Positions 5,937 to 58,178 of a DNA stretch of 64,000 nt are shown piece after piece. Under the pieces are notes generated by a model that saw only the letters and a program-made list of their open reading frames with translations, was not told the origin of the DNA and did not search any database. The DNA is taken from assembly GCF_016863395.1 (NCBI RefSeq), contig NZ_BOOU01000052.1:110653-174652 (forward strand). The letters run 5' to 3'. The stretch's first letter is position 1. Every line of letters begins with the position of its first letter. The DNA is from Sphaerisporangium rufum (GTDB taxonomy: Bacteria; Actinomycetota; Actinomycetes; Streptosporangiales; Streptosporangiaceae). A program made the position numbers and the translations under genes.

Positions 5937-8342
5937 GTGCTCGACGACTCTCCCAGCGCCACCGGCGACGCCCTCGACGAGATCCTCGACGACACCGGGG
6001 AGGGCCCCGGCGCGCGCGGCCGGGGGTCCGGCCACGACGGTTCCGCCGTGACGGAGGCCCACCGGTCCCCGGAGCCCGCCGGCTCCGGCGAATCGGCCGA
6101 GTCCGCCGAGTCCCCGGCCACCGGCGACACCGAAGACTTCGACGACACCGACGACTTCGAGGCCGAGGACGCCGAGGAGGACGACCTGCCGCCGCTCGAG
6201 CGGCTGCTGGCCGCCGCGGTCGCCGCGGTGGGCGGCACCGAGCGGCCCGGCCAGGTCACCATGGCCCGGGCGGTGCGCGACGCCATCGAGCACGACGAGC
6301 ATGTGGCGGTCCAGGCCGGCACCGGCACCGGCAAGTCGCTGGCCTACCTGGTGCCCGCGCTCCGGCACGCCATCGAGTCCGACAGCGCGGTGGTGGTCTC
6401 CACCGCGACCATCGCCCTGCAGCGCCAGCTGGTCGACCGTGACCTGCCGCGGCTGGCCGGGGCGCTGGGCGACCTGCTCCCGCATGAGCCGCAGTTCGCC
6501 ATCCTCAAGGGAAGGCGAAACTATCTTTGCCGCTACAAGGCGAGCGCCGGCTGGCCCGAGGAGGAGGACGCCCAGCTGTTCGATCCGCGCGAGGTCGGCG
6601 CGACCGGCCGGATGGTGCAGCGCATCCAGGAGTGGGCCGAGACCACCGAGACCGGCGACCGCGACGAGCTGGTGCCGGGGGTGAGCGAGCAGGCGTGGCG
6701 GCAGTTCTCGGTCAGCGCCAGGGAGTGCCTGGGCGCCTCGCGCTGCCCGAGCGGCGCGGAGTGCTTCGCCGAGCAGGCCAGGGAGCGGGCCGGCAACGTC
6801 GACGTGGTGGTCACCAACCACGCGCTGCTCGCCATCGACGCGATGGAGGAGTTCGCCGTGCTGCCCGAGCACGACGTCGTGGTGGTGGACGAGGCGCACG
6901 AGCTGGTGGACCGGGTCACCGGGGTGGTGACCGCCGAGCTGTCCGACACCGCCGTCTCGGTCGCGGTGCGCCGGGTCGGCCGGCTGATCGAACAGGCGGT
7001 CGCCGACCGGCTGCAGGAGGCCGGCGAGGACCTCAAGGCGCTGCTGTCGGCCGCCCCCGCCGGGCGGCTCGACCAGCTTCCCCAGGTGCTCGGCGTCACA
7101 CTGACCGTGCTGCGCGACGCGGCGGCCGCCTGCCTGACCGCGATGGGCCCGCGCGACTCCCGCGGCGGCCGGGACGACCCGGAGCAGGCCGGGCAGCGCA
7201 AGGCCGCGTTCACCGCCCTGGACGAGGTGCACGACACCGCGCAGCGCATCCTCGAGGCCTTCGGCGGCGACTCCGAGGTCGACCGGGCCGAGGTGGTGTG
7301 GCTGGAGGCGGCGACCGACCGCCGGCCCGCGACGTTGAAGGTGGCGCCGCTCAGCGTGGGCGGCATGCTGCGCGACCGGTTGTTCGCCGACCGCACGGTC
7401 ATCCTGACCAGCGCCACCCTCGCCCTCGGCGGCACCTTCGAGGGCATGGCCCGCCAGTGGGGCCTCGGCCCGCCCGCCCCGGACGCCCCCGGCGGCACGG
7501 AGCCGGCACCGGGCGGCACCGGTCCGGCGGATTCCGCCGCCGCGAAGGACGCCGCGAACAACGGCACGGACGACGGCGCGGACGACGGCGCGGACGACGG
7601 CGCGGACGACGGCGCGGACGACGGCGGCGACGATGAAGGGGACGGCGCACGGGGGGCGGCGGCGCGCGGCGCCAAGGCCTGGCGCGGGCTGGACGTCGGC
7701 TCGCCCTTCGACCACGCGCGCAGCGGCATCCTGTACGTCGCGGCGCACCTGCCGCAGCCCGGCCGCGACGGCCTGCCCAAGGAGTACCTGGACGAGATCG
7801 CCGAGCTGATCGAGGCGGCCGGCGGCCGCACCCTGGGCCTGTTCTCCTCGATGCGCGCCGCCCGGGCCGCCACCGACGCGCTGCGCGACCGGCTGTCGGC
7901 CCCGCTGCTGTGCCAGGGCGACGACTCCACCTCGCAGCTGGTCAAGCAGTTCGCCGAGGACCCGGCCACCTGCCTGTTCGGCACCCTGTCGCTCTGGCAG
8001 GGCGTGGACGTGCCCGGGCCGTCGCTCAGCCTGGTGATCATCGATCGCATCCCGTTCCCCCGGCCGGACGACCCGCTGGCCTCGGCCCGGCAGCGGCACG
8101 TCGCGGCGCGCGGCGGCAACGGCTTCATGTCGGTGGCCGCCACCCATGCCGCGCTGCTGCTGGCGCAGGGCGCCGGCCGGCTGCTGCGCTCCCAGCACGA
8201 CCGGGGCGTGGTGGCCGTGCTGGACCCGCGCTTCGCCACCGCCCGGTACGGCTCGTTCCTGCGCGCCTCGCTGCCGCCGTTCTGGGCGACGACCGACCCC
8301 GCGAAGGTCCGCGCCGCGCTGCGCCGCCTCACCGCGTCCTGA
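5937..8342 (+). CDS. DinG/XPD-type ATP-dependent DNA helicase
   Basis: This superfamily 2 helicase is about 801 residues long. After an acidic N-terminal tail of about 85 residues come the Walker A GTGTGKS, motif Ia (VVVSTATIALQ), and an Fe-S cluster region with four Cys (RNYLCRY, RECLGASRCPSGAEC). Then follow the DEAH box (VVVDEAHELVD), motif III-like TSATLALGG, and C-terminal motifs SLWQGVDVPG and QGAGRLLRS. This is the order found in DinG/YoaA/XPD 5'-3' helicases, which unwind D-loops and R-loops in repair. An acidic insertion at about 7490-7670, partly built from a 12-bp repeat, lies between the helicase lobes. GTG 5937 is preferred over TTG 5928 because of the promoter. Confidence 0.9.
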   Translation: MLDDSPSATGDALDEILDDTGEGPGARGRGSGHDGSAVTEAHRSPEPAGSGESAESAESPATGDTEDFDDTDDFEAEDAEEDDLPPLERLLAAAVAAVGGTERPGQVTMARAVRDAIEHDEHVAVQAGTGTGKSLAYLVPALRHAIESDSAVVVSTATIALQRQLVDRDLPRLAGALGDLLPHEPQFAILKGRRNYLCRYKASAGWPEEEDAQLFDPREVGATGRMVQRIQEWAETTETGDRDELVPGVSEQAWRQFSVSARECLGASRCPSGAECFAEQARERAGNVDVVVTNHALLAIDAMEEFAVLPEHDVVVVDEAHELVDRVTGVVTAELSDTAVSVAVRRVGRLIEQAVADRLQEAGEDLKALLSAAPAGRLDQLPQVLGVTLTVLRDAAAACLTAMGPRDSRGGRDDPEQAGQRKAAFTALDEVHDTAQRILEAFGGDSEVDRAEVVWLEAATDRRPATLKVAPLSVGGMLRDRLFADRTVILTSATLALGGTFEGMARQWGLGPPAPDAPGGTEPAPGGTGPADSAAAKDAANNGTDDGADDGADDGADDGADDGGDDEGDGARGAAARGAKAWRGLDVGSPFDHARSGILYVAAHLPQPGRDGLPKEYLDEIAELIEAAGGRTLGLFSSMRAARAATDALRDRLSAPLLCQGDDSTSQLVKQFAEDPATCLFGTLSLWQGVDVPGPSLSLVIIDRIPFPRPDDPLASARQRHVAARGGNGFMSVAATHAALLLAQGAGRLLRSQHDRGVVAVLDPRFATARYGSFLRASLPPFWATTDPAKVRAALRRLTAS
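7568..7615 (+). repeat. 12-bp tandem repeat in helicase gene
   Basis: GGACGACGGCGC is repeated four times exactly, with a fifth partial copy. It encodes Gly-Ala-Asp-Asp units inside the acidic insertion between helicase lobes. Confidence 0.9.
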
Positions 8343-43841: not shown

Positions 43842-44288
43842 CTATCCGGTCCATCCGTCGAGGCTGAACGGCCGGCCGTGCTGGTATGCCCGGATCCCGG
43901 TGCGGATGTAGGGGACGATCTGTTCGGGGAGGTCGACAAGGTCGAACCAGTCGATCTTGCTGCATTTACCTGGTTCGGCGTTGACCGGCTCGCCGGTCCA
44001 CCGCGTGGTGGTGAAGAACATGCCAATGCGGGCTTGGCCGTCAGGGTCTGCGTGGTGGCATACGTGGGCGAAGACCAGTTCGGCGGGATCGATGACGATG
44101 TCGAGTTCTTCGATCGCTTCGCGGACCGCGCCGGCGGGCAGAGCCTCGCCTTCTTCGAGGCAGCCACCGGGAACAGACCAAGAGCCGTCGGCGAAACCGG
44201 TATTCGCCCTCTTCAGCAGCAGCACCTTGCCGTCTCGAACGAGGATGAGGTGCACGCCGACGTGAGGGCGGAAGATGTGATCGGCCAC
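43842..44288 (-). CDS. NUDIX hydrolase (radical SAM module)
   Basis: This 148-residue NUDIX protein has a complete box: GGCLEEGEALPAGAVREAIEELDI (residues about 41-64), with the REAxEEL core and upstream FADGSWSVPGG. Such enzymes hydrolyse nucleoside diphosphate-X compounds. It starts leaderlessly with GTG 44288. It stands 87 nt downstream of the P-loop kinase gene on the same strand, in a group with a radical SAM gene. A role in cleaning up or maturing a modified nucleotide is inference. GC is lower than the core genome. Confidence 0.9.
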   Translation of the reverse strand: MADHIFRPHVGVHLILVRDGKVLLLKRANTGFADGSWSVPGGCLEEGEALPAGAVREAIEELDIVIDPAELVFAHVCHHADPDGQARIGMFFTTTRWTGEPVNAEPGKCSKIDWFDLVDLPEQIVPYIRTGIRAYQHGRPFSLDGWTG

Positions 44289-44294
44289 TGGGCC

Positions 44295-44300
44295 ACGGTA
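44295..44300 (-). promoter_or_regulatory. Leaderless -10 (TACCGT) for NUDIX gene
   Basis: On the minus strand TACCGT lies 6 nt before GTG 44288. Confidence 0.55.
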
Positions 44301-44375
44301 CCCGGCCGGCTCGTTGTGGTCGGGTCAAGGAACCGGGCGGCGTCGCGGGTTTGCACGGCGCCGCCCGGTCGGCCG

Positions 44376-45044
44376 TCAGCCTCGATCGGCCCCAGCGGGA
44401 ATGAAGGCAGCGATGTGATCGGCGAGTTCGTTGGGGGCGCGGCCGTCGGTGGGCAGCAGGTAGCCGGTCGGGTCGCTGCGGGCGATCTGGTCATAGTGGT
44501 CCTGGAGCCGCGCCAGCAGGGCCCGGTCACGCATCAGGTCTCGGTCGCTTTGGGTCTGGTCTCGTTTGGCACGTATCCGTTCGGTGAGGGCGTCCAGATC
44601 GGTGCGGAGATAGATGGTCAGGTCGGGGGTGGTGAGGTAGCCGGCGAACGGGGCGATCGCCGAGGCGACGGTGTCGTTTTCAAGGCCGTGGACTGCGGCG
44701 TGGTTGGCGATGACAGAGTTGACGTACCGGTCGGCGATGGCGTGCCCGGTCGTGAGGGCTTCCCGGGCGAGGTCGGAGGCGTGGAGAGCGCCGGCGAGGT
44801 AGAACGCCAGTTGGGGGAACGCGCGAGCGTGGGCGTTGATGTAGGGCTGCAGCTCGCTGACCGGAGAGGGGACGGTGTGGAAGTGGGAGCAGGCGAACCG
44901 TTCAGCCAGGATCGTGGCGAGAGTCGACTTGCCTGACCCGCTGACTCCTTCGAGGACCACGAAGATCCCGCGGCGGGGGGTGTCGGCTGGCTGGTAGGCC
45001 TCCGATACCGAGTGGGCAGTGGCAGTGGTCTGCGTAGTGGTCAA
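44376..45044 (-). CDS. Thymidylate-kinase-like P-loop kinase
   Basis: This 222-residue kinase has Walker A LEGVSGSGKST (residues 31-41), a DRY motif (AIADRYVNSVIANHAAVHG) and YLRTDLDALTERIRAKRDQ with the Arg-rich lid. This is the plan of dTMP kinases, though an N-terminal tail of about 25 residues and weak lid motifs set it apart from housekeeping Tmk. It starts with TTG 45044 overlapping the radical SAM stop (TTGA). AAGGGA 7 nt upstream supports that start. Coupling to the radical SAM gene suggests it phosphorylates a nucleotide product or substrate of that enzyme. Confidence 0.85.
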   Translation of the reverse strand: MTTTQTTATAHSVSEAYQPADTPRRGIFVVLEGVSGSGKSTLATILAERFACSHFHTVPSPVSELQPYINAHARAFPQLAFYLAGALHASDLAREALTTGHAIADRYVNSVIANHAAVHGLENDTVASAIAPFAGYLTTPDLTIYLRTDLDALTERIRAKRDQTQSDRDLMRDRALLARLQDHYDQIARSDPTGYLLPTDGRAPNELADHIAAFIPAGADRG

Positions 45045-46084
45045 CGGAGTGTCCCTTCAGTGAAGGCGTCCAGGTGGGCCGAGACCGCCGAGAGCAGCGC
45101 GGCCGGGTCATCGGAGTAGGGGGTGACGTCCATGCGCAGGTCGGTGCGGAGCAGGCACGGGGCGAGGGTGCCCGCCGAGTCCAGGCGCAGCGCCCAGAAC
45201 CCCTCGATGCATTTGCGGCGCGCCGGGCAGGTGGTGCACTGGCCGACGTGGTGGCGGCCGAGGGATGCATCGATGACCTCGATGGTCATCGGCCCGGTGC
45301 TGCCGGTGACGGTGAAGACGCGCCTCCCCTGACCGGTTCCGGTGGTCACGACCTGTTCGGCGGTGGCGATGGCCCGCAGGTAGGAGGCGATGTCTACGGA
45401 GGGGATCTTGGCTCCGCCGAGGCCCGCGTTGTGATCGGTGTCGACCAGCTCGATGATCTGCAGGCCGGTCCCGAGGTGGCGGGAGTAGGCGATTATGTCC
45501 ATCACCTCGTGGGCGTTCTGCTCCTGCAGCAGCAGGTTGAGCTCGACGGTCGGGATCACGTCGATGGCGGCCTCGATCCCTGCTTTGATCTTGGCGATGT
45601 CGCCCGGTTTCCCTTCGGCGATCGCGGCGATGGACGCGTCGGAGAAGTAGTGCAGCGACACCTTCACCCGATCCAGCGTGGTGTCACCCAGCCAGGGCAG
45701 CTCCTTGACGAGAGTCAGACCGTTGGTGATGAGCGTGGTGGTGTACTGGCTGGGCTGGTGGGTGGGGATCCCCTGAAGGACCGGGCGGGCCGCCGGGGAC
45801 AGTAGGGGCTCGCCTCCGGTGAAGAAGACCCGCCGGATGCCGGCGGCGGTCATCGTGTTGATCGCGTTCAGGTAGTCGGCCGGGGCCAGTGCCCGGCGTC
45901 GCGGCTGAATGGTCCGGTCGTGGTGGGTGATCCTCGGTGGGACCTCGCCTTCGTTGTGGCAGAACCAGCTTCCAAGCTGGCAGCGAGGCGTGAAGGAGAC
46001 CCGTAGTTGGCCGCCGCGGCGGGCGAAGTCGACGGCGCCGCCGGAGAGGCCTGGCATGGGGAGATCGGTGAGAGCGCTCACCAA
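45041..46084 (-). CDS. MoaA-like radical SAM protein with altered cluster motif
   Basis: This 347-residue protein has radical SAM/SPASM layout: N-terminal LRVSFTPRCQLGSWFCHNEGE, then FFTGGEPLLSP (SAM-binding GGEP), TTLITNGL, VKVSLHY, and a C-terminal Cys cluster CTTCPARRKC with a later APC. The expected CxxxCxxC is C35-x3-S39-x2-C42: the codon is AGC, one base from the TGC Cys. Without three Cys the 4Fe-4S cluster should not form normally. TTG 46084 or GTG 46081 starts it after AGAAGG. It heads a coupled unit with the kinase and is divergent from a damaged XRE regulator. Confidence 0.85.
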   Translation of the reverse strand: MVSALTDLPMPGLSGGAVDFARRGGQLRVSFTPRCQLGSWFCHNEGEVPPRITHHDRTIQPRRRALAPADYLNAINTMTAAGIRRVFFTGGEPLLSPAARPVLQGIPTHQPSQYTTTLITNGLTLVKELPWLGDTTLDRVKVSLHYFSDASIAAIAEGKPGDIAKIKAGIEAAIDVIPTVELNLLLQEQNAHEVMDIIAYSRHLGTGLQIIELVDTDHNAGLGGAKIPSVDIASYLRAIATAEQVVTTGTGQGRRVFTVTGSTGPMTIEVIDASLGRHHVGQCTTCPARRKCIEGFWALRLDSAGTLAPCLLRTDLRMDVTPYSDDPAALLSAVSAHLDAFTEGTLR

Positions 46085-46269
46085 GGCTCACCTTCTCTGG
46101 TCTGCCGGCCCTAGGGCGGCCGGCGTTGCTTTGTCCTGCATCACGGTCCGCTGCGGCAGGTGAACGCATCAATGTCGCTGTTCGCCCGGGACATTGCCAT
46201 CAAAGGCAATGCCTCGCGCGTGTCGGCAGGACTACTCTCGGTGCAGGTTGTTCGCGCCGGAGGTCCACG

Positions 46270-47467
46270 ATGGCCACGATGAGCCGAGCACGACGGGCCG
46301 AGCTGCAACGCCGAGCCCAAGAGATACGTCTCACCTGCCAACGCGACGGCATTGCCGTCGAGCAGATCGCCCTGGCGATCCTCGATGCCCTGCAGCCGGA
46401 GATGCGGCGCCTTGAGGCGTGGAGGATCGCCTACGGCTGGTCCAGGCCGCAGTGCGTCGCCGATCGTGGACGTGGCGGCAGGCGGCACCAGCGGAAGCGA
46501 GGACCCGATGCGACGTCGGACATTGATGGCCGCGGCGGGTCTGTCAGTGCCGCTGCACCTGCTGGACAGGCTGGATGAGGCGCTCGCCTTGACCCCGTCG
46601 CCGGCGCATGCGGCCGAGGTGGGGGACGTCAAGGCGGCGCTGGCCGGAGCGCGCCGGGCGTATGACGCCGGGAAGCTGGCAGCGGTGGTCGGCGGGCTAC
46701 CTGATCTGCTGGCATCGGCACAGCACGCCGCGGAGCGTACGGGGACGCCGTCGTCGCTGGTGTTGTTGGCGGCGTGTTATGACGTGGCGACCGGAGCGTT
46801 GAACAAGATCGGCAGAAGGCCGGCGAGCCGGATCACCGCGGACCGGTCGTCGGCGTCCTCGGCGCGGTCGGGTTCGGTGGCCGCGATGGCCGCTTCGGCG
46901 CGAGCGCTGGGGATCGTGCTGCGGCATGAGGGGCGCCCGGAGATCGCCGAGCGGGTGACGTTGCAGGCGGCTGGGCGGTTGGAGGCGGCAGGGCTGCGTA
47001 CAACGGTGAAGGCGGCGGTGTATGTACGGATGCTGTGCACGTGCGGCTACAACGCCGCCCAGGCCGGGGACCGGGACCGGGCGTTGGAGCTGATCGGCGA
47101 GGCGGAGCGGGTGTCGCGGATTTCGCGGGGAGGCGATGGGGTATCGCCTCAGGTGACGCTGTATCGCGTCAGTGTGCACTGGGCGCTCGGCGATGCCGGG
47201 ACAGCGCTGCACGCGGGTCGTGGCCTACGGCCGGAGCAGTTCCCCACCCCGGAGCGCCGGGGGCGGCTGCACACCGACCTGGCACGGGCGTGGTGGATGT
47301 GGGGCAAGCCAGAGCAGACCGCCCACGCGCTGCTCGCCGCCGGCCAGGAGGCGCCGAGCGAGGTACGCGACCGGCCGGCGATCCGGGCGATCGCCGGAGA
47401 GTTGGTGGCCCGGCATCCGCGAGTGGCCGGCGTTGGGCAGCTGGCGGCGGTGCTCGACCGCGGGTAG
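46270..47467 (+). pseudogene. XRE-TPR regulator, HTH region deleted and frameshifted
   Basis: ATG 46270 (SD GGAGG 7 nt upstream) opens a frame with the usual start of a family of actinomycete XRE regulators (QRRAQEIRLTCQRDG, RRLEAWRIAYGWSRPQ). At about 46453 that frame loses sense. The coding signal continues in another frame, VDVAAGGTSGSEDP, MRRRTLMAAAGLS and then about 300 residues of TPR-like repeats to 47467. The helix-turn-helix that should lie between the two parts is missing. ATG 46508 could express the TPR part alone (319 aa). It is divergent from the radical SAM gene and presumably once controlled it. Confidence 0.6.
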
Positions 47468-48527
47468 GGCTCGGGGGTTGCGATCGGAGCGGACGTCTGT
47501 TGCGTCCCCGGCGAGGCTGGGCGGGTAGCGAAGTCCCGGACGGCGACTGCCGGGTGCCGGGGAGCCCGGTCAGGGCCGGGTCTCGCGGCCGAGCCAGAAG
47601 GCCAGCCATCCGACGACCGCCATGGCGACCGCCCCCGCGACACCCCAGCGCGCCGGAACCGGCATGACCGCGGACAGGGTCGCGGCCGTATAGACCACGC
47701 AGGGCAGCCCGGCGGCGAATGCGAGCACGAATCCGTCCAGGCCCATCACCACCGCGCAGGCCAGGTGGAACCCGAGCGCGGTCAACGCGGCGGCCGATCA
47801 CCCCGCGGACCCCGGTCTCCGCGACCTGGCCCACCTCACCCCCAACACCGGCCTGGCCGACCACCCCGGTCTGCCCTCGGACGCCCAGCACTCCGCGGAC
47901 CCCGGTCTCGGCGACCTGGCCCACCTCCCCGTGCACCCCGACCTGCCCGACCACCCCCGTCTGGCCCCGGACACCCACCACGCCGCGCACCCCGGTCTCC
48001 GCGACCTGGCCGACCTCGCCCCGCTCCCCCACGTACGAGACCTGACCCACCGCGCCGAGCACGCCCCGGATGGACCGCTGGTCCACGTAGACCGGCCGCA
48101 GCCGGTAGTCGTCCACCCGGTTGAGCAGCGCCTTCCACAGGTCGGCCGGCGTCGCGTACGCCTTGCGGAAGTTCATCAGCCCGGCGATGCGTAAGGCGGC
48201 CGCGGTGACGGTCACGCAGCTGTTGGTGTCCAGGTCGTAGATTCCGGGGTTCGCCCGCTTGTCGTTCATGTACTTCACGACATCGGCGACCTTCTGGTCG
48301 GAGATCGAGAAGGACAGCTTGTCGGCGAACTCCGCGCGGCGGACGTCGTCCACGTTGGGGTTCACGTACATCTTGGTGCCGTGCTCCTCGCGCCACACGT
48401 CCAGCGAGGTGCGCTTGCCGGTGGAGTCGCGCACCTCGACCATCACGTGTCCGAAGTCGTAGATGTATCCGGCGCCGCCGAGGATGCCTTTCGCCGGGCG
48501 GTAGTACACGGTGAGGGTGCCTGCCAT
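47169..48527 (-). CDS. Possible papain-like domain plus collagen-like Gly-X-Y repeats; frame disrupted at 3' end
   Basis: ATG 48527 (SD GGGAG) opens a frame of 452 codons. Residues 1-150 are a folded domain with His27 (FGHVMVEV) and Cys104 (NSCVTVTAAA), a His-before-Cys order as in permuted papain/NlpC-like folds. Residues 154-247 are Gly-X-Y triplets rich in Val, Gln, Arg and Glu without Pro, built from a 30-residue repeat. After residue 247 the frame reads as Arg/Pro-rich noise to the stop at 47169 and overlaps the convergent regulator. In another frame a two-TM hairpin begins exactly there. A frameshift, or misassembly in the repeats, is likely. The function is unknown. Confidence 0.55.
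   Translation of the reverse strand: MAGTLTVYYRPAKGILGGAGYIYDFGHVMVEVRDSTGKRTSLDVWREEHGTKMYVNPNVDDVRRAEFADKLSFSISDQKVADVVKYMNDKRANPGIYDLDTNSCVTVTAAALRIAGLMNFRKAYATPADLWKALLNRVDDYRLRPVYVDQRSIRGVLGAVGQVSYVGERGEVGQVAETGVRGVVGVRGQTGVVGQVGVHGEVGQVAETGVRGVLGVRGQTGVVGQAGVGGEVGQVAETGVRGVIGRRVDRARVPPGLRGGDGPGRIRARIRRRAALRGLYGRDPVRGHAGSGALGCRGGGRHGGRRMAGLLARPRDPALTGLPGTRQSPSGTSLPAQPRRGRNRRPLRSQPPSPTRGRAPPPAAQRRPLADAGPPTLRRSPGSPAGRVPRSAPPGRRRAARGRSALACPTSTTPVPGRCAAAPGAPGWGTAPAVGHDPRAALSRHRRAPSAH
47570..47785 (-). CDS. Two-TM membrane segment following the collagen-like repeats
   Basis: TTG 47785 opens 71 codons giving two good transmembrane helices (ACAVVMGLDGFVLAFAAGLP and WGVAGAVAMAVVGWLAFWLG). It has the third-position GC expected of real coding sequence. 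It begins within 2 nt of the last meaningful codon of the collagen-like protein and lacks an SD. It may thus be the displaced C-terminal anchor of that protein rather than a separate gene. An in-frame TGA lies 4 codons before the Ala-Ala-Ala upstream of the TTG. Confidence 0.5.
   Translation of the reverse strand: MTALGFHLACAVVMGLDGFVLAFAAGLPCVVYTAATLSAVMPVPARWGVAGAVAMAVVGWLAFWLGRETRP
47787..48020 (-). repeat. 90-bp tandem repeat, 2.6 copies, coding Gly-X-Y triplets
   Basis: Units at 48020-47931, 47930-47841 and 47840-47787 (partial) encode a 30-residue block of ten triplets: GEV, GQV, AET, GVR, GVx, GVR, GQT, GVV, GQx, GVx. Differences are single residues. The DNA repeats are a likely site of slippage. 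Confidence 0.85.
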
Positions 48528-50933: not shown

Positions 50934-51410
50934 CCGGTCCGCCTTCCGGTTCTGGACATCACGAACTCACCGGCCGGCCCGGCGGCCTCCGGTCAGGGAT
51001 GTCGGATTCTCGCGGCCCACCACGCGCGGCTCAACTGCCGCACCCGGTGTCTCACTCGCACACACCCACGACCATAGCCCTCACCACCGACATTTCCCGG
51101 GCCGGCGACCTCCTGCTCCCCAGTGAGTACGAGCACCCGGCCGTACGCCGCCCCGAGCCGTTTGGAAAGAGCCGCTTTTCCCCATCGCCCTTACGATAAT
51201 TGCGGCACATCCGGGCAGATGACGTCAGTCTCCGCAAATCCAGAGAATGTTATTGACGCACGGCAAGAGACGTGCCAGACATCGCCGTGGCCGTACGTCA
51301 GGCGGTCACCTTCGTGGCAGTATCTTGAGCGAAAAGCGGAGCCCTCGACAGCCAGCGAGCTGGGAGAAGCCGAGCAGCCATCCTACGGACAGTGGAAGCA
51401 GGAGTTGAGC
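50934..51410. other. Intergenic region upstream of NUDIX gene
   Basis: There is no convincing gene in 477 bp. The right half is AT-richer than the core genome and probably contains the NUDIX promoter; GATAAT at about 51196 is a candidate -10. AGGAG at 51400-51404 is the ribosome-binding site for ATG 51411. A 61-codon minus-strand frame (51052-51237) has no SD and no recognisable motif. Confidence 0.4.
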
Positions 51411-51878
51411 ATGGACGGCCCTGACCGCCTTCGTAGTAATGGGATGCCGGAGTACCTGGTCGAGCGGAACCCCGGATATTTCGAGTACCAACTGCCGATC
51501 TCGGTGAAATTGGTGGTCGACATGGGCGGGAAGGTCCCGCTGCTCATGAACGAGCGGGACGAGTGGGAACTACCAGGCGGGAAGCTTGAGGTCGGTGAGA
51601 CACCGGAGGTGTGCGTCTACCGGGAGGTCTTCGAGGAGCTGAACCTCACGGTGAGCGTCGAGGAGATCATCGACACCTGGGTCTACGAGATCACCAGAAA
51701 CCGGCACACCTTCATCGTGAGCTATGGCACCACCTACGACGGCGACGAGCAGGTGCGCAGCTCGAACGAGCACAAGGAGCTCGGGCTGTTCAGCTACCTT
51801 GAGGTGCCGGCCCTGCGCATGCCCGAACCTTACAAGCGCACCATCCAGACCTGGCAGAAGATCATCACGCAGCGATGA
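51411..51878 (+). CDS. NUDIX hydrolase
   Basis: This 155-residue protein has an intact NUDIX box GGKLEVGETPEVCVYREVFEELNL (about residues 56-79), preceded by NERDEWELPGG. The N-terminus (ERNPGYFEYQLPISVKLVVDMGGKVPLL) is unlike MutT and resembles ADP-ribose/ADP-sugar-type NUDIX proteins only in general layout. It uses ATG 51411 after AGGAG. Base composition is more AT-rich than the flanking core genes. The restriction-modification operon follows on the other strand, so it may be part of the same accessory segment. Confidence 0.9.
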   Translation: MDGPDRLRSNGMPEYLVERNPGYFEYQLPISVKLVVDMGGKVPLLMNERDEWELPGGKLEVGETPEVCVYREVFEELNLTVSVEEIIDTWVYEITRNRHTFIVSYGTTYDGDEQVRSSNEHKELGLFSYLEVPALRMPEPYKRTIQTWQKIITQR

Positions 51879-51989: not shown

Positions 51990-54900
51990 TCACGGTCGCG
52001 AAGAAGGCTGAACCGCGTCGTTGTCGATCGCGGCCTCGTAGAACGCGTCGGCGAGCGCCGCGATGACCTCCTGGCCCCTGGGCCCGTCGGTGAAGAAGTA
52101 GTCGGCCATGGTGTTGTGCGCGTGCTGGTTGTCGGCGACGGCCTCGCTGACGGCGGACTGGAAGTCCGCCGACTCCACGAACTGCTTCTTGGAGTTCACC
52201 CGGGTCTGCTGGACCAGGTTGGTGTCGGCGAGCAGCCGCTGCAGGAGTCCCTGCACGAACTCCTGGATCTGGGACCTGGCGAACGACTCGGCACCGAAGA
52301 GGTCGTTCAGCTTCTCGATGACGACCTGGAGCGCGACGTACTTCGGCTCCTTCCTGGTGCCGGTGCCGGCCGCGCCGATCCCCTTCAGCTGCCCGTCCCC
52401 GGTCAGCGAGATGTCGACCGGGATCCCCTTGCTGTGCTTCACGCCGGCCAGCACCACGTCCGATAGGTCGACGTCGGCGCTCCAAGAGGAATCGGCGATG
52501 ACCTTGTCCAGCAGCCGGAGGAAGATCGAGAGCATCTCCAGGTACGGGTCGCCGTAGTCGAGAATCTGGCTCATGAAGTCGTACAGCCGCACGTAGGTGG
52601 CGACGTCCTTGCGGAAGAGGTCGAGCGTGTTGAGCGTGACCTTGTCGTCGGCCTCGATCGCCGCCGCGTAGCGACGCCGGAACTCGTGCTGGGCCGGGCT
52701 GATCGCCGCCGAGAGCGCGTTGTTGCCCTTGCGGGCGACCCACAGCTCGGCGACCTGGCGGACCTGCTCCCTGGTGTAGACCCCTGCCTGGGCGAGCTTG
52801 TCCGCCAGGTTGATGACGACGTACGGGTCGGTCTCGGTCTCCAGGGTGGCGTCGGTGTAGTACGGCTCGAAGGCGGCCCTGATGTCGTCGGGCTTGTTGA
52901 CGAAGTCGATGACGAACGTCTTGGCCTTCTGCTCCCCGCCGGCGGTGCGGTGGGTGCGGTTGAGCCGGGAGAGCGTCTGCACGGCGGTGACCCCCGACAG
53001 CCTCTTGTCGACGTACATCGCCGAGAGCAGCGGCTGGTCGAAGCCGGTCTGGAACTTGTTGGCGACCAGCATGACCTTGAACGTGTCGCCCTTGAACGCC
53101 GCGGCCAGATCGGCGCCCGCTCCGGGGTTCATGTTGGCCTCGGTGAACTCGACGTCCTTGGCCGGCGCCGGCCCCCAGTCCTGGCTCCACGTCTCGTCCT
53201 CGGGCATCGACACCGAGCCGGAGAAGGCGACTAAAGTCCGGTAGTTGTACGACGCGTCCTCGGCGGCCCGCCTGGCAATGTAGGCGTCGATGGCCTTCTT
53301 GTACTTCACCGCCGCCTTGCGCGAGTCGGTGACGACCATCGCCTTCGCCCGGCCTTCCAGCAGGTGGGCGACGCTGACGTGGAAGTGTTCCACGATGATC
53401 TGCACCTTCTGGCCGATGTTGGTGGGGTGCAGCTTCACCCACCGCATCAGCCCCTTGCGCGCGGCCGACTCCTCGACCTCGCCGCCGTCGCCGCTCTCGG
53501 CCTTGCCGATGATCTGCAACGCGGTCTCGTACGACTGGTACCCCTTGAGCACGTCGAGGATGTAGCCCTCCTCGATCGCCTGCTTCATCGAGTACAGGTG
53601 GAACTCGCGCGGCCGGCCGTCCGGCCCCTTCCGGCCGAACAGCTCCAAGGTCTTGTTCTTCGGCGTCGCGGTGAAGGCGAAGTAGGAGATGTTCTTCGAC
53701 TCGGCCCGCTCGGCCATCTCCGCGGCCAGGACCGTCTCGACGTCGACCGGGCCACCGTCCTCGATGTCCTTGATCTCCTCGGCGGTCAGCACCTGCTTCA
53801 GCTTCGAGGAGATCTGCCCCGACTGCGAGGAGTGCGCCTCGTCGGCGATGACCGCGAACCGCCTGCCCTTCAGGCCGGAGTCGGCCCGGATCTCGTCGAG
53901 CGCGAACGGGAACGTCTGCACCGTCACCGCGATGATCAGCTCGCCGTTCTTCAACGCCTGGGCCAGCAGGCCGGACTTCGACGTCGCGCCGGCCTTGCGC
54001 ACGTCCTCGGGGCTGATCGTCGCAACGATGTTCCCGCTGCCGTCGATCTGCCGGATCGCGTCCTGGAGCTGCCCGTCGAGCACCGTCCGGTCGACGACCA
54101 CGATGACCGAGTCGAACACCTTCCGGTCGTCGACGTGCAGCCGGGCGAGGCGGTGCGCGGTCCAGGCGATCGTGTTCGTCTTCCCCGATCCGGCGGAGTG
54201 CTCGATCAGGTATCGCTGGCCGACCCCCTCCTCGGCCACGGCCTCCACGATCTTGGTGACCGCCTCCCACTGGTGGAAGCGGGGGAACAGCATGCTCGTC
54301 CGGCGCACCGGCGTGCCGGTCGCGATGTCCCACTCCTCCCTGGTCTCCACGATCATCAGCCGGCCGATGATGGTGAGCCAGGCGTGCTTCTCCCAGATCC
54401 GCTCCCACAGGTACGCCGTCGCCGACCGCCCGCCGGTGGCGGGCGGGTTCCCGGCACCGTTCTCGTAGCCGACGTTGAACGGCAGGAAGTGCGTATCCTC
54501 GCCCTCCAGCCGGGTGGTCATCGCGGCCAGGCCGTTGGAGACCGCGAAGTGCACCAGCGCCCGGTGCCCGAACGACAGCAGCGGCTCGCGCCGGCCGCCG
54601 GTCAGCGGGTTGCGTTCCTTCTGGTACTGCCGGATCGCCTCGGTCAGCGACTGGGTGAAGTCGGTCTTCAGCTCCACCGTCGCGACCGGGAGCCCGTTGA
54701 CGAAGAACACCAGGTCGATGCTGCGCTGGTCGGCGGTCGAGAAGTGCACCTGCCGCATCACCCGGACCCGCATCGCCGCGTAGTGCGCGTTCGTCGTCTC
54801 GTTCAGCGATGTCTCCGGCCGGAACTGCGCCATTTTCAACCGGCCGCCGCCGATGTACTGCACCCCACCGCGCAGGATGTTCAGCATCCCGCCGCCGTGC

Positions 54901-55142
54901 TCCAGCGGCCGGTCCAGCGCCGCGGCCAGCACATCGAGGAACTTCCCCGCCGACCCCGCCGCCTTCAACGCCTTCTCGTACGCCGCCTGCTGCGTCGCCC
55001 CCAGCCAGGCGAACAGGTCCTCGGGAAAGAGCGCCCGCTCTGGGTCGTACCCGGTGTCGTTCTCCGAGTACAGCCAGCCGTGGGCCGCAAGGTGTTCGCA
55101 GATCTCAGCCTCGAAGGCGACCTCATGGTGGTCGGCCATCAC
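51990..55142 (-). CDS. hsdR: Type I restriction enzyme, R (nuclease/translocase) subunit
   Basis: This is a 1050-residue HsdR. The N-terminal PD-(D/E)xK nuclease has Asp143 and Glu157-x-Lys159 (DLVFFVNGLPVATVELK). The SF2 motor follows with Walker A EHSAGSGKT (314-322), the DEAH box (IADEAHSSQSG), TATPKNKTLELFG and later helicase motifs (QTGFDQPLLSAMYVDKRL, QTLSRLNRTHR). A C-terminal helical region would bind the methylase core. It cuts DNA far from unmethylated target sites after ATP-driven translocation. The start overlaps hsdS as GTGATGG (GTG 55142 or ATG 55139). Confidence 0.96.
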   Translation of the reverse strand: MMADHHEVAFEAEICEHLAAHGWLYSENDTGYDPERALFPEDLFAWLGATQQAAYEKALKAAGSAGKFLDVLAAALDRPLEHGGGMLNILRGGVQYIGGGRLKMAQFRPETSLNETTNAHYAAMRVRVMRQVHFSTADQRSIDLVFFVNGLPVATVELKTDFTQSLTEAIRQYQKERNPLTGGRREPLLSFGHRALVHFAVSNGLAAMTTRLEGEDTHFLPFNVGYENGAGNPPATGGRSATAYLWERIWEKHAWLTIIGRLMIVETREEWDIATGTPVRRTSMLFPRFHQWEAVTKIVEAVAEEGVGQRYLIEHSAGSGKTNTIAWTAHRLARLHVDDRKVFDSVIVVVDRTVLDGQLQDAIRQIDGSGNIVATISPEDVRKAGATSKSGLLAQALKNGELIIAVTVQTFPFALDEIRADSGLKGRRFAVIADEAHSSQSGQISSKLKQVLTAEEIKDIEDGGPVDVETVLAAEMAERAESKNISYFAFTATPKNKTLELFGRKGPDGRPREFHLYSMKQAIEEGYILDVLKGYQSYETALQIIGKAESGDGGEVEESAARKGLMRWVKLHPTNIGQKVQIIVEHFHVSVAHLLEGRAKAMVVTDSRKAAVKYKKAIDAYIARRAAEDASYNYRTLVAFSGSVSMPEDETWSQDWGPAPAKDVEFTEANMNPGAGADLAAAFKGDTFKVMLVANKFQTGFDQPLLSAMYVDKRLSGVTAVQTLSRLNRTHRTAGGEQKAKTFVIDFVNKPDDIRAAFEPYYTDATLETETDPYVVINLADKLAQAGVYTREQVRQVAELWVARKGNNALSAAISPAQHEFRRRYAAAIEADDKVTLNTLDLFRKDVATYVRLYDFMSQILDYGDPYLEMLSIFLRLLDKVIADSSWSADVDLSDVVLAGVKHSKGIPVDISLTGDGQLKGIGAAGTGTRKEPKYVALQVVIEKLNDLFGAESFARSQIQEFVQGLLQRLLADTNLVQQTRVNSKKQFVESADFQSAVSEAVADNQHAHNTMADYFFTDGPRGQEVIAALADAFYEAAIDNDAVQPSSRP

Positions 55143-56353
55143 GCCGCCCCACGCACGTCGATCTCCCCCGTCACAGCCGCCGAGATCAGCGCGCCTCTGC
55201 GCTCCCGCGAGAGTTCGATGAACCGCCTGGTTTCGCCGATCAAGGTGTCGATAGCAGCAACTTTCGTATCCAAGTCAACAGCAATTCGGCGCTGTAAATT
55301 AAGAGAGAAGATCGGCAACGGCAACTCACGCAGAGCCCCTACATTGAAGTGTCCTTGAATTGCTCCAACGGAGCCTTCATTGATACGAGAAGCGGCCACA
55401 GGAGAATTGAGATACCAGACAAGAAAATCTGCGTCAATCCCTGCCCCCGGGCGAACTATGAGTATATCAATAGCATTAGCACCATCAAGCGATTTAGGGA
55501 TCTTGGCGGCTGCACCAGCCTGACCAGTTCGGACCACAACAACATCTCCCGCATTGAGGCGAGACTTGGGGTTTGCTTCATCACCTTCAGCGGAGATGTA
55601 CACCAGGTCACGAGCAGAAACAGATCCTCGGCTGATGTTAAGGCCGCGCAGGGCAGGTACGCCGTCATCTACATACCACCGGGAAGGCTGCACGACGATG
55701 CCGACAGTGACGTCTCGGACTACGCGTTTCAGAGGCTGCTGCGCCTGAGCGTTAAGGAAGGCGGCACCGGTGACTGCCTCGCGACGTTCGTGGAGCAGCT
55801 CGATCAGGCGCTGCTGCTCCTCGATGAGCGTGTCGATGCGGACGGTCTCGCGGTCGAGATAGTCAACGACAGCGCGCTGATACATGAGGGGAGGCACGGT
55901 CAGCCGAAACTGCTTCAGAGCTTCGCACGTAAGGCCGCCCTTCGTGCTTCCGTTCTCCTCGCTGAGGTATCGGAGCTCGTCGTAAGCCGCCCTGAGTGAC
56001 CACAAAAGATAATCCGGAACCCACCGGCTCGGGTCAGGAGTAACGTACGCAACGTGCTGGTTCAGCGTGGCCTCAATGTCGAGGATGGTTGCCATGCCGC
56101 GAGTCTTCCCCTGGCCCGTCAGACCGACCAGAACAGAGCCGGGAGCAACAACTGGCAGGTGGCACTCTCGGAGGGCCGCGGCAGTCACGAACTGTTCGGC
56201 TCGAGTGACACGAGACTCGTTGACGACGGAGCTGTTCAGCCATGGGACGGCACCACTGTCCCAATAGATGGTGCTGTCCCGCCTCGGAGTCGATCCGTTG
56301 CCGATCCGAGCCGTGCGCCCAAGCTTTTCTACGGGCCAGGACCTGTCCATCAC
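55139..56353 (-). CDS. hsdS: Type I restriction-modification specificity subunit
   Basis: This 404-residue HsdS has two target-recognition domains (about 1-150 and 205-360). Each is followed by a conserved helix: YLDRETVRIDTLIEEQQRLIELLHERREA and VDLDTKVAAIDTLIGETRRFIELSRERRGAL. The near-identical helices form the coiled coil setting the spacer of the bipartite target. TRD sequences are AT-rich and unlike the neighbours, as usual for these exchangeable domains. The start overlaps the hsdM stop with the same GTGATGG junction that joins hsdS to hsdR. Confidence 0.95.
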   Translation of the reverse strand: MMDRSWPVEKLGRTARIGNGSTPRRDSTIYWDSGAVPWLNSSVVNESRVTRAEQFVTAAALRECHLPVVAPGSVLVGLTGQGKTRGMATILDIEATLNQHVAYVTPDPSRWVPDYLLWSLRAAYDELRYLSEENGSTKGGLTCEALKQFRLTVPPLMYQRAVVDYLDRETVRIDTLIEEQQRLIELLHERREAVTGAAFLNAQAQQPLKRVVRDVTVGIVVQPSRWYVDDGVPALRGLNISRGSVSARDLVYISAEGDEANPKSRLNAGDVVVVRTGQAGAAAKIPKSLDGANAIDILIVRPGAGIDADFLVWYLNSPVAASRINEGSVGAIQGHFNVGALRELPLPIFSLNLQRRIAVDLDTKVAAIDTLIGETRRFIELSRERRGALISAAVTGEIDVRGAA

Positions 56354-58095
56354 TGCTCGACCTCCCTCAGGAGGTCGAGGATCTTGGTGACCTGCTTTTC
56401 CAGGTCGGCGTCGATTTCGGCGAGGGGGCGGGGTGGGACGTACTTGTAGAAGTGGCGGGTGAAGGGGATCTCGTAGCCGATCTTGACCTTGGTCCAGTCG
56501 ATCCAGGCGTCGGGGACGTGCGGCTTGACCTCGGTGTCGAAGTACGCCTGGATGACTTCGACCTTGGCCGCGGCGCCGGCAGTCGAGCCGCCGTAGGTGA
56601 AGGGCACGTTCTCGGTGTCGCGCTTCTTGGCGTCGGGCTTCGGGTTGCCCTTGCGATCGACGACGGGCTTGCCGGCCTCGTCCAGGAGGGGCCGTTCGAC
56701 GGTGGCGGCCCAGTAGCCGAACTCGTCGTTGCGCAGCACCTTGGAGAAGTCCGGGTCGGCGTCGGTGAAGTCGGCGTACAGCCGGACGACCTGGGCGCGG
56801 TCGGTGTCACTGATCTCGCGGCCCTTGGAGCCGAGGTTCTTGCGCATCTTAGTCCAGAACGACGTGCCGTCGATGAGCTGGACCAGGCCCTTACGGTCGG
56901 GGTGCTTGGTGTTGTCGAGGATCCAGATGTAGGTGGCGATGCCGGTGTTGAAGAACATGTTGGTCGGCAGCGCGACGATCGCGTCGACCAGGTCGTTCTC
57001 CAGCAGCCACTTACGGATGTTGGACGGGCCGGACTCGGCGGCGCCGTTGAAGAGCGGCGAGCCGTTCATCACGATCCCGGCCCGGCCGCCGCCGTCCTCG
57101 GGGGCGCGCATCTTGTGCGCCAGGTGCAGCAGGAACAACATCTGGCCATCCGAGGTGGCGGGCAGGCCCGGCGCGAAGCGGCCGTACGGGCCGGCCTCGT
57201 CGCGCTCCTTGGTGACGGCCTTGGCGTACTGCTTCCAGTCGACGCCGTACGGCGGATTGGACATGCAGAAGTCGAACTGGCGGCCCTTGAAGGCGTCGTT
57301 GGTGAGCGTGTTGCCGAAGGCGATGTTGGACGCGTCGTGGCCCTTGGCGAGCAGGTCGGACTTGCAGATCGCGTACGACTGCGGGTTGTACTCCTGGCCG
57401 TAAAGGCTCAGCCGGGCGTCCGGGTTCTGGGCGAGCAGGTGGTCCTCGGCCACGGTGAGCATGCCGCCGGTGCCGGCGGTGGGGTCGTAGATCGTGCGGA
57501 CGATCCCGGCCTCGGTCAGGGCGGCGTCCTTCTCGGCGAAGAGCAGGTCGACCAGCAGCCGGATCGCGTCACGCGGCGTGTAGTGGTCACCGGAGGTCTC
57601 GTTCGCGGCCTCGTTGAACTTGCGGATGATGTACTCGAACGCGTCCCCCATGTCGGCGTTCGACACGACGTCGGGGTGCAGGTCAACGGCGGCGAAGGAC
57701 TTCACGATCTCGCGCAGGAGACCGGCCTTCTCCAGGGCGATGATCTCCTTCTTGAAGTCGAAGTACTCGAACACATCGACGTCGGCGGAGAACCGGTCGA
57801 TGTAATCGACGAGGTTGTCCTCAAGCCCGTCCGCGTCCTGCAGCAGGTTGGCGAAGCCGTACTTCGAGGTGTTGTAGAACGGCCGGCCGGTGGCCCTTTT
57901 GACCTCGATCCGGAGCCGGTTCGGGTTCTGGTGTGCTGAGGCCAACTCTCGGACGGTCTCGCGGTCCGCCTCCAGAATGCAGTCGAGGCGCCGGAGGATC
58001 GTGAACGGGAGAATCACGTTCCCGTACTGGTTGGGGCGGTAGGGACCCCGAAGCCGATCCGCGATCGACCAGATGAAACTACCAAGTGTGCTCAC
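56350..58095 (-). CDS. hsdM: Type I restriction-modification methylase subunit
   Basis: This 581-residue N6-adenine methyltransferase has the N-terminal HsdM helical domain (IWSIADRLRGPYRPNQYGNVILPFTILRRLD), motif I DPTAGTGG (204-211) and catalytic motif IV NPPY (280-283) in SNPPYGVDW. With HsdS it methylates host target sites. GTG 58095 with SD GAGGAG is preferred; the frame is open 21 codons further without an SD. It is the promoter-proximal gene of hsdM-hsdS-hsdR, with a candidate -10 TATGAT at 58184-58179. Confidence 0.95.
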   Translation of the reverse strand: MSTLGSFIWSIADRLRGPYRPNQYGNVILPFTILRRLDCILEADRETVRELASAHQNPNRLRIEVKRATGRPFYNTSKYGFANLLQDADGLEDNLVDYIDRFSADVDVFEYFDFKKEIIALEKAGLLREIVKSFAAVDLHPDVVSNADMGDAFEYIIRKFNEAANETSGDHYTPRDAIRLLVDLLFAEKDAALTEAGIVRTIYDPTAGTGGMLTVAEDHLLAQNPDARLSLYGQEYNPQSYAICKSDLLAKGHDASNIAFGNTLTNDAFKGRQFDFCMSNPPYGVDWKQYAKAVTKERDEAGPYGRFAPGLPATSDGQMLFLLHLAHKMRAPEDGGGRAGIVMNGSPLFNGAAESGPSNIRKWLLENDLVDAIVALPTNMFFNTGIATYIWILDNTKHPDRKGLVQLIDGTSFWTKMRKNLGSKGREISDTDRAQVVRLYADFTDADPDFSKVLRNDEFGYWAATVERPLLDEAGKPVVDRKGNPKPDAKKRDTENVPFTYGGSTAGAAAKVEVIQAYFDTEVKPHVPDAWIDWTKVKIGYEIPFTRHFYKYVPPRPLAEIDADLEKQVTKILDLLREVEQ

Positions 58096-58178
58096 TAGGC
58101 TCCTCGGGGGGTCACTCAGCGTGCATGGCTGCGCCGCCCCACAATGCGCGTACAGCAAGGGGGGAACACGTAAGCGGC

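Follow-up and report, generated by a model that had tools for sequence, protein, structure and literature searches.

A radical SAM, thymidylate-kinase-like and NUDIX gene cassette of scattered actinobacteria, a candidate nucleotide-analogue pathway with a probably inactive copy in Sphaerisporangium rufum

The three thmABC genes of Photorhabdus asymbiotica, which encode a radical S-adenosylmethionine (SAM) enzyme, a nucleoside kinase and a nucleotide hydrolase, are enough for E. coli to make 4'-thiothymidine, and resistance is conferred by the hydrolase by itself; the same source describes a sulfur-for-oxygen exchange on a nucleoside for the radical SAM enzyme AbmM (PMC12691670). A Nudix enzyme takes part in tubercidin biosynthesis (PMC6112128), and the albucidin cluster contains radical SAM genes of other types (PMC7074753). 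Here we describe a cassette encoding a radical SAM protein (RSAM), a thymidylate-kinase-like enzyme and a NUDIX hydrolase, found in a stretch of 64,000 nucleotides from Sphaerisporangium rufum (contig NZ_BOOU01000052.1, positions 110,653 to 174,652; hereafter the window). The titles and abstract openings of the open-licence literature searched hold no description of this cassette, and the accessible portion of PMC13118837 says nothing about it.

The RSAM-kinase-NUDIX set is a real, conserved, patchily distributed and co-inherited cassette of scattered soil actinobacteria. Among 30 distinct loci, all selected for holding RSAM, the kinase gene directly follows RSAM in 29, and a NUDIX gene lies downstream on the same strand in 28. 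The exceptions are L069, which lacks the kinase, L058, with no NUDIX gene inside 6 kb, and L005, with the NUDIX gene on the opposite strand. The L005 cassette of Streptomyces sp. SID3343 (L005:2893-6946) also carries two kinases and is perhaps an intermediate form. RSAM and kinase were found in the identical 6 of 250 Streptosporangiaceae genomes; in a sample of 392 Streptomyces genomes, RSAM occurred in 20, the kinase in 21 and both in 19, the RSAM-only genome being G656 and the kinase-only genomes holding a partial match (G721) and a distant match (36%, G781). A class-wide draw gave 2 positive genomes among 394, the window's own genome included. RSAM and kinase protein distances are correlated (r 0.88) over the 27 of 30 loci that remain once the damaged L007, L069 and L075 are excluded, and 0 of 5000 permutations gave a value as high. 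Chance adjacency of the two genes is ruled out by gene order, shared genomes and this correlation. An earlier sequence-only reading of the window had proposed that the same gene order in relatives would support a genuine system and that enzymes not co-occurring elsewhere would speak against it; the order of the three enzyme genes was recovered, and the enzymes do co-occur.

Two additional genes lie between the kinase and NUDIX genes in 20 of the 30 loci, namely in 20 of the 23 Streptomyces loci, and are absent from L068, L069 and L075. One encodes a phosphoglucomutase-domain-I-like protein of ~165 aa (L008:9645-10145 and relatives); PGM_PMM_I is matched by the protein of L009 (2.5e-6), and Pfam gave nothing for those of L008 and L005. 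The other encodes an STM4013/SEN3800-family hydrolase, whose copy in Streptomyces sp. ISL-100 scores 334 bits against a cut-off of 250. The three-gene form occurs in Nonomuraea, Sphaerimonospora, Actinomadura, an unclassified actinobacterial metagenome-assembled genome, Sphaerisporangium and the window. Among plasmid records, one from S. albidoflavus and one from Kitasatospora carry a copy; the S. albidoflavus plasmid cassette (L082:1-4197) lies close to the type I-E CRISPR genes casA and cas3. Damaged copies were also found, with both RSAM and kinase truncated in G887, RSAM in two frames in N. ceibae and no kinase in G656.

In the window, the cassette and its surroundings are arranged as follows:
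45041-46081, minus strand: radical SAM (RSAM) gene with a GTG start at 46081, encoding a protein of predicted MoaA fold with CHNEG and CX2CX5CX17C motifs and Cys38 changed to Ser
44376-45044, minus strand: kinase gene of predicted thymidylate-kinase fold, overlapping the RSAM gene by 4 nt
43842-44288, minus strand: NUDIX hydrolase gene (PF00293, 3.6e-18), its Nudix box complete but for Asp63 in place of the last Gly
46270-46578, plus strand: N-terminal fragment of an XRE-type regulator, drawn from alignment with the Sphaerisporangium melleum regulator gene, the frame running off past a deletion
46352-47467, plus strand: TPR half of the regulator in a different frame, 43% identical over 346 aa to the S. 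melleum regulator
46192-46211, no strand: palindromic operator candidate CATTGCC-N6-GGCAATG between the regulator and RSAM genes

The order proposed from sequence, an RSAM gene overlapping a dTMP-kinase-type gene with a NUDIX gene next, agrees with the 87-nt gap between kinase and NUDIX genes and with the Pfam matches of the three proteins (Radical_SAM 1.2e-15; Thymidylate_kin 8.8e-15, assigned as Thymidylate_kin/dNK; NUDIX 3.6e-18).

The RSAM family was sampled by pooling two lists of the best 120 matches, giving 198 proteins with that of the window included; the RSAM of another Sphaerisporangium genome is 82% identical to the latter. CHNEG, correctly placed by the sequence-only reading after the third cysteine of the cluster motif, is present in 188 of the 198 proteins, and the auxiliary cysteines CX2CX5CX17C in 194. 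A complete CxxxCxxC, which the sequence-only reading had named as a sign of a real system when intact in relatives, occurs in 189 of the 191 proteins covering that region. One of the two exceptions is the window RSAM itself, whose motif is C-x3-S-x2-C and not the full form; in the other, the metagenomic protein P0057, Asp stands in place of Gly-Cys and the middle cluster cysteine is gone (RCQLDWFCHNEG), making it a second case of motif loss.

Some database records label family members GTP 3',8-cyclase MoaA or cyclic pyranopterin phosphate synthase, and the modelled RSAM agrees with the MoaA fold, MoaA being its top fold match, so the cassette could be read as a duplicated molybdenum-cofactor MoaA beside unrelated neighbours. 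We regard this as highly improbable: the NCBIfam MoaA equivalog models gave 120, 115 and 112 bits against cut-offs of 325, 231 and 284, and CX2CX13C and a C-terminal GG, both present in 18 of 18 MoaA-type loci, were each found in 0 of 198 family proteins. The kinase partner is moreover constant, and a separate MoaA-like gene, weakly similar to RSAM, is present at G000:C55. All NCBIfam cut-offs were missed by RSAM, the best score being the 120 bits against 325; prokaryotic viperin membership is likewise rejected (viperin_w_prok, 28.5 bits against a cut-off of 180). On these profile scores, RSAM is claimed by no specific family model. Phage records yielded 16 weak matches to it, with identities below 32% throughout; two carry the annotation moaA_1.

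The kinase has a predicted dTMP kinase fold, but its membership of the dTMP kinases is rejected, NCBIfam DTMP_kinase giving 66.9 bits against a cut-off of 83.25; among the matches listed, the kinase passes no NCBIfam cut-off. The PADLOC models PDC-M51B (3.2e-21) and VakA (8.7e-12) also match it, no curated cut-off being attached to these matches. In the NUDIX protein, the position held by Asp63 is Gly in 6 of 6 aligned relatives.

The PADLOC matches bear on whether the cassette is an anti-phage system with a viperin-like strategy, in which RSAM would make a chain-terminating nucleotide by another chemistry, the kinase would supply the substrate and the NUDIX enzyme would detoxify. Weak pVip matches of RSAM and the patchy distribution of the cassette fit such a role, and so do the positions of the S. 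albidoflavus plasmid regulator, ~3 kb from cas3 of the type I-E CRISPR system, and of type I restriction genes 4.5 to 10.7 kb past the regulator end in the window. However, RSAM reaches only a fraction of the viperin cut-off, the kinase fold is common, the PDC-M51A model is not among the matches of the ten scanned cassette proteins, and defence neighbours were examined at the window and the plasmid alone, with no control, so no enrichment is shown. Taken together, the PADLOC matches, plasmid CRISPR neighbour and window restriction genes, uncontrolled as they are, are suggestive of defence; as an account of the cassette, we hold it to be a minority possibility, at about one chance in four.

The window copy is probably inactive, judging from its changed cluster cysteine and broken regulator gene. 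RSAM codon 38 reads AGC, which places Ser at the middle cluster cysteine, and loss of a cluster cysteine in radical SAM enzymes should abolish activity. The divergent XRE-TPR regulator described from sequence is recognisable in both parts opposite RSAM, but the gene is broken, with the DNA-binding and TPR parts in separate frames. Relative to the S. melleum regulator gene, 197 nt are absent, with two alignment gaps at ~46452-46470 and a shifted frame, and because of this loss and frame change the helix-turn-helix (HTH) core is lost. The three enzyme frames are open in the window. Residues unique to this copy at otherwise invariant columns number 3 in RSAM, 6 in the kinase and 4 in the NUDIX protein, where the six other relatives have 2-9, 3-10 and 0-8, respectively, and the nonsynonymous-to-synonymous ratio (pN/pS) of the enzymes is not raised in a comparison that excluded the damaged N. 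ceibae copy. No wholesale decay of the three enzymes was found, and this ordinary constraint, with the open frames, indicates that the damage is recent or that the single codon 38 is an error.

Using four regulator queries, a divergent homologous regulator was found in 10 of the 30 loci, and Actinomadura oligospora has one in addition; in the remaining loci the regulator lies on the RSAM strand or none was found with these queries. The S. melleum and A. oligospora divergent regulators share an HTH domain (52% over 112 residues), and that of A. oligospora (L003 ~6350-7800, minus strand) likewise looks split over two frames past the HTH domain. The NsdA-family model NF053720 (cut-off 75 bits) scores 344 for the Nonomuraea longispora regulator and 66.9 for that of S. 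melleum; the window pieces do not match it, and gave no Pfam, NCBIfam or PADLOC match at E 0.1.

The palindrome was spotted by visual inspection of the window and S. melleum before the searches for it. With up to one mismatch allowed, the 7.8 Mb window genome holds this site alone (control 0), and A. oligospora has one site, exact and likewise between regulator and RSAM genes (control 1 match, elsewhere); one-mismatch sites number 3 in the S. melleum genome and 2 in the N. longispora genome. Half-sites occur in 3 of 27 upstream regions (window, A. oligospora and S. melleum) and in none of the other 24, the S. melleum interval holding half-sites without a full palindrome. Such a once-per-genome palindrome in two genera suggests dedicated control, and together with the NsdA-family score of the N. 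longispora regulator it favours a signalling molecule or modified cofactor made for the cell itself and turned over by the NUDIX enzyme. This seems improbable to us, as the regulators vary among copies, and a cassette confined to 6 of the 250 and 20 of the 392 genomes, with several copies damaged, is not a general function.

Downstream of the regulator remnant (window ~47795-48045), a minus-strand frame encodes GVRGVxGVRGQTGVVGQ-type repeats. A second NUDIX protein (window 51123-51878, plus strand) groups with the N. longispora one (L001:5791-6285) that adjoins the NsdA-family regulator. The minus-strand genes at 51990-55142 and 56350-58158 encode the type I restriction enzyme HsdR (SWI2_SNF2, HSDR_N) and the methyltransferase HsdM (837 bits to MTase_I).

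Setting the self-directed signal aside, we lean, by a little over even chances, towards the co-inherited cassette being a minimal nucleotide-analogue pathway that turns a cellular nucleotide into a modified one, the window copy likely being inactive; this reading by analogy draws on the sufficiency of three genes in thmABC and the Nudix enzyme in tubercidin biosynthesis. The modified nucleotide would likely serve as an antibiotic or antiviral. The small nucleotide-modifying module originally proposed, perhaps defensive or leading to a small metabolite, is partly supported. In an intact copy, RSAM would abstract hydrogen from a nucleoside or nucleotide, and its four C-terminal cysteines would carry a second iron-sulfur cluster that holds the substrate or, AbmM-like, donates sulfur. 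The thymidylate-kinase-like enzyme would phosphorylate the RSAM product or its precursor, and the NUDIX enzyme would cleave the phosphate chain so formed. This cleavage would complete the pathway or protect the producer, the latter being the role of ThmC, an NTPase, in the case of 4'-thiothymidine. The phosphoglucomutase-domain-like protein and STM4013-family hydrolase may add a tailoring step in Streptomyces, and in some copies the divergent XRE-type regulator may control the operon via the palindrome upstream of RSAM. More tentatively, and with the odds against it, we propose that an undescribed actinobacterial RSAM family with an AbmM-type second cluster acts within this three- to five-gene cassette to make a new sugar-modified, possibly 4'-thio, nucleotide that is kinase-activated, disarmed by the NUDIX enzyme and used as an antibiotic or antiviral. 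If the nucleotide-analogue reading of the cassette holds, it would be another radical route to natural nucleotide analogues beside viperin and AbmM. MoaA and cyclic pyranopterin phosphate synthase labels in some records would then hide a conserved nucleotide-modifying cassette of actinobacteria, and with a three-gene minimum, a single thmABC-style expression experiment could expose the product.

Comparison with known systems places the cassette near, yet apart from, each of them. MoaA differs from RSAM in its auxiliary cysteines, its GG end and three pocket residues that are changed in RSAM, in addition to the scores below the MoaA cut-offs. The pVip/VakA pair resembles the cassette in an RSAM adjoining a VakA-related kinase, whereas the cassette RSAM has a low viperin score, CHNEG and auxiliary cysteines, and a NUDIX gene is added. 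The STM4013/SEN3800 hydrolase family, whose model is classed as a hypothetical equivalog, is represented in the Streptomyces cassettes and absent from the window's subtype. AbmM (PDB 8wm2) shares CHNEG and the CX2CX5CX17C auxiliary cysteines with the RSAM family, has a nucleoside context and matches by profile at 1e-16; it is 20% identical to RSAM over 260 aligned residues and, according to PMC9032320, belongs to an 18-gene albomycin pathway, unlike the small cassette. Like thmABC, the cassette has kinase and nucleotide hydrolase genes adjoining that of a radical SAM enzyme, the three being co-inherited, although most Streptomyces cassettes carry two more; thmABC is reported from gamma-proteobacteria, and its ThmB is an AbmG homologue whereas the cassette kinase is of thymidylate-kinase type. 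By gene content, thmABC offers the nearest published logic for the cassette.
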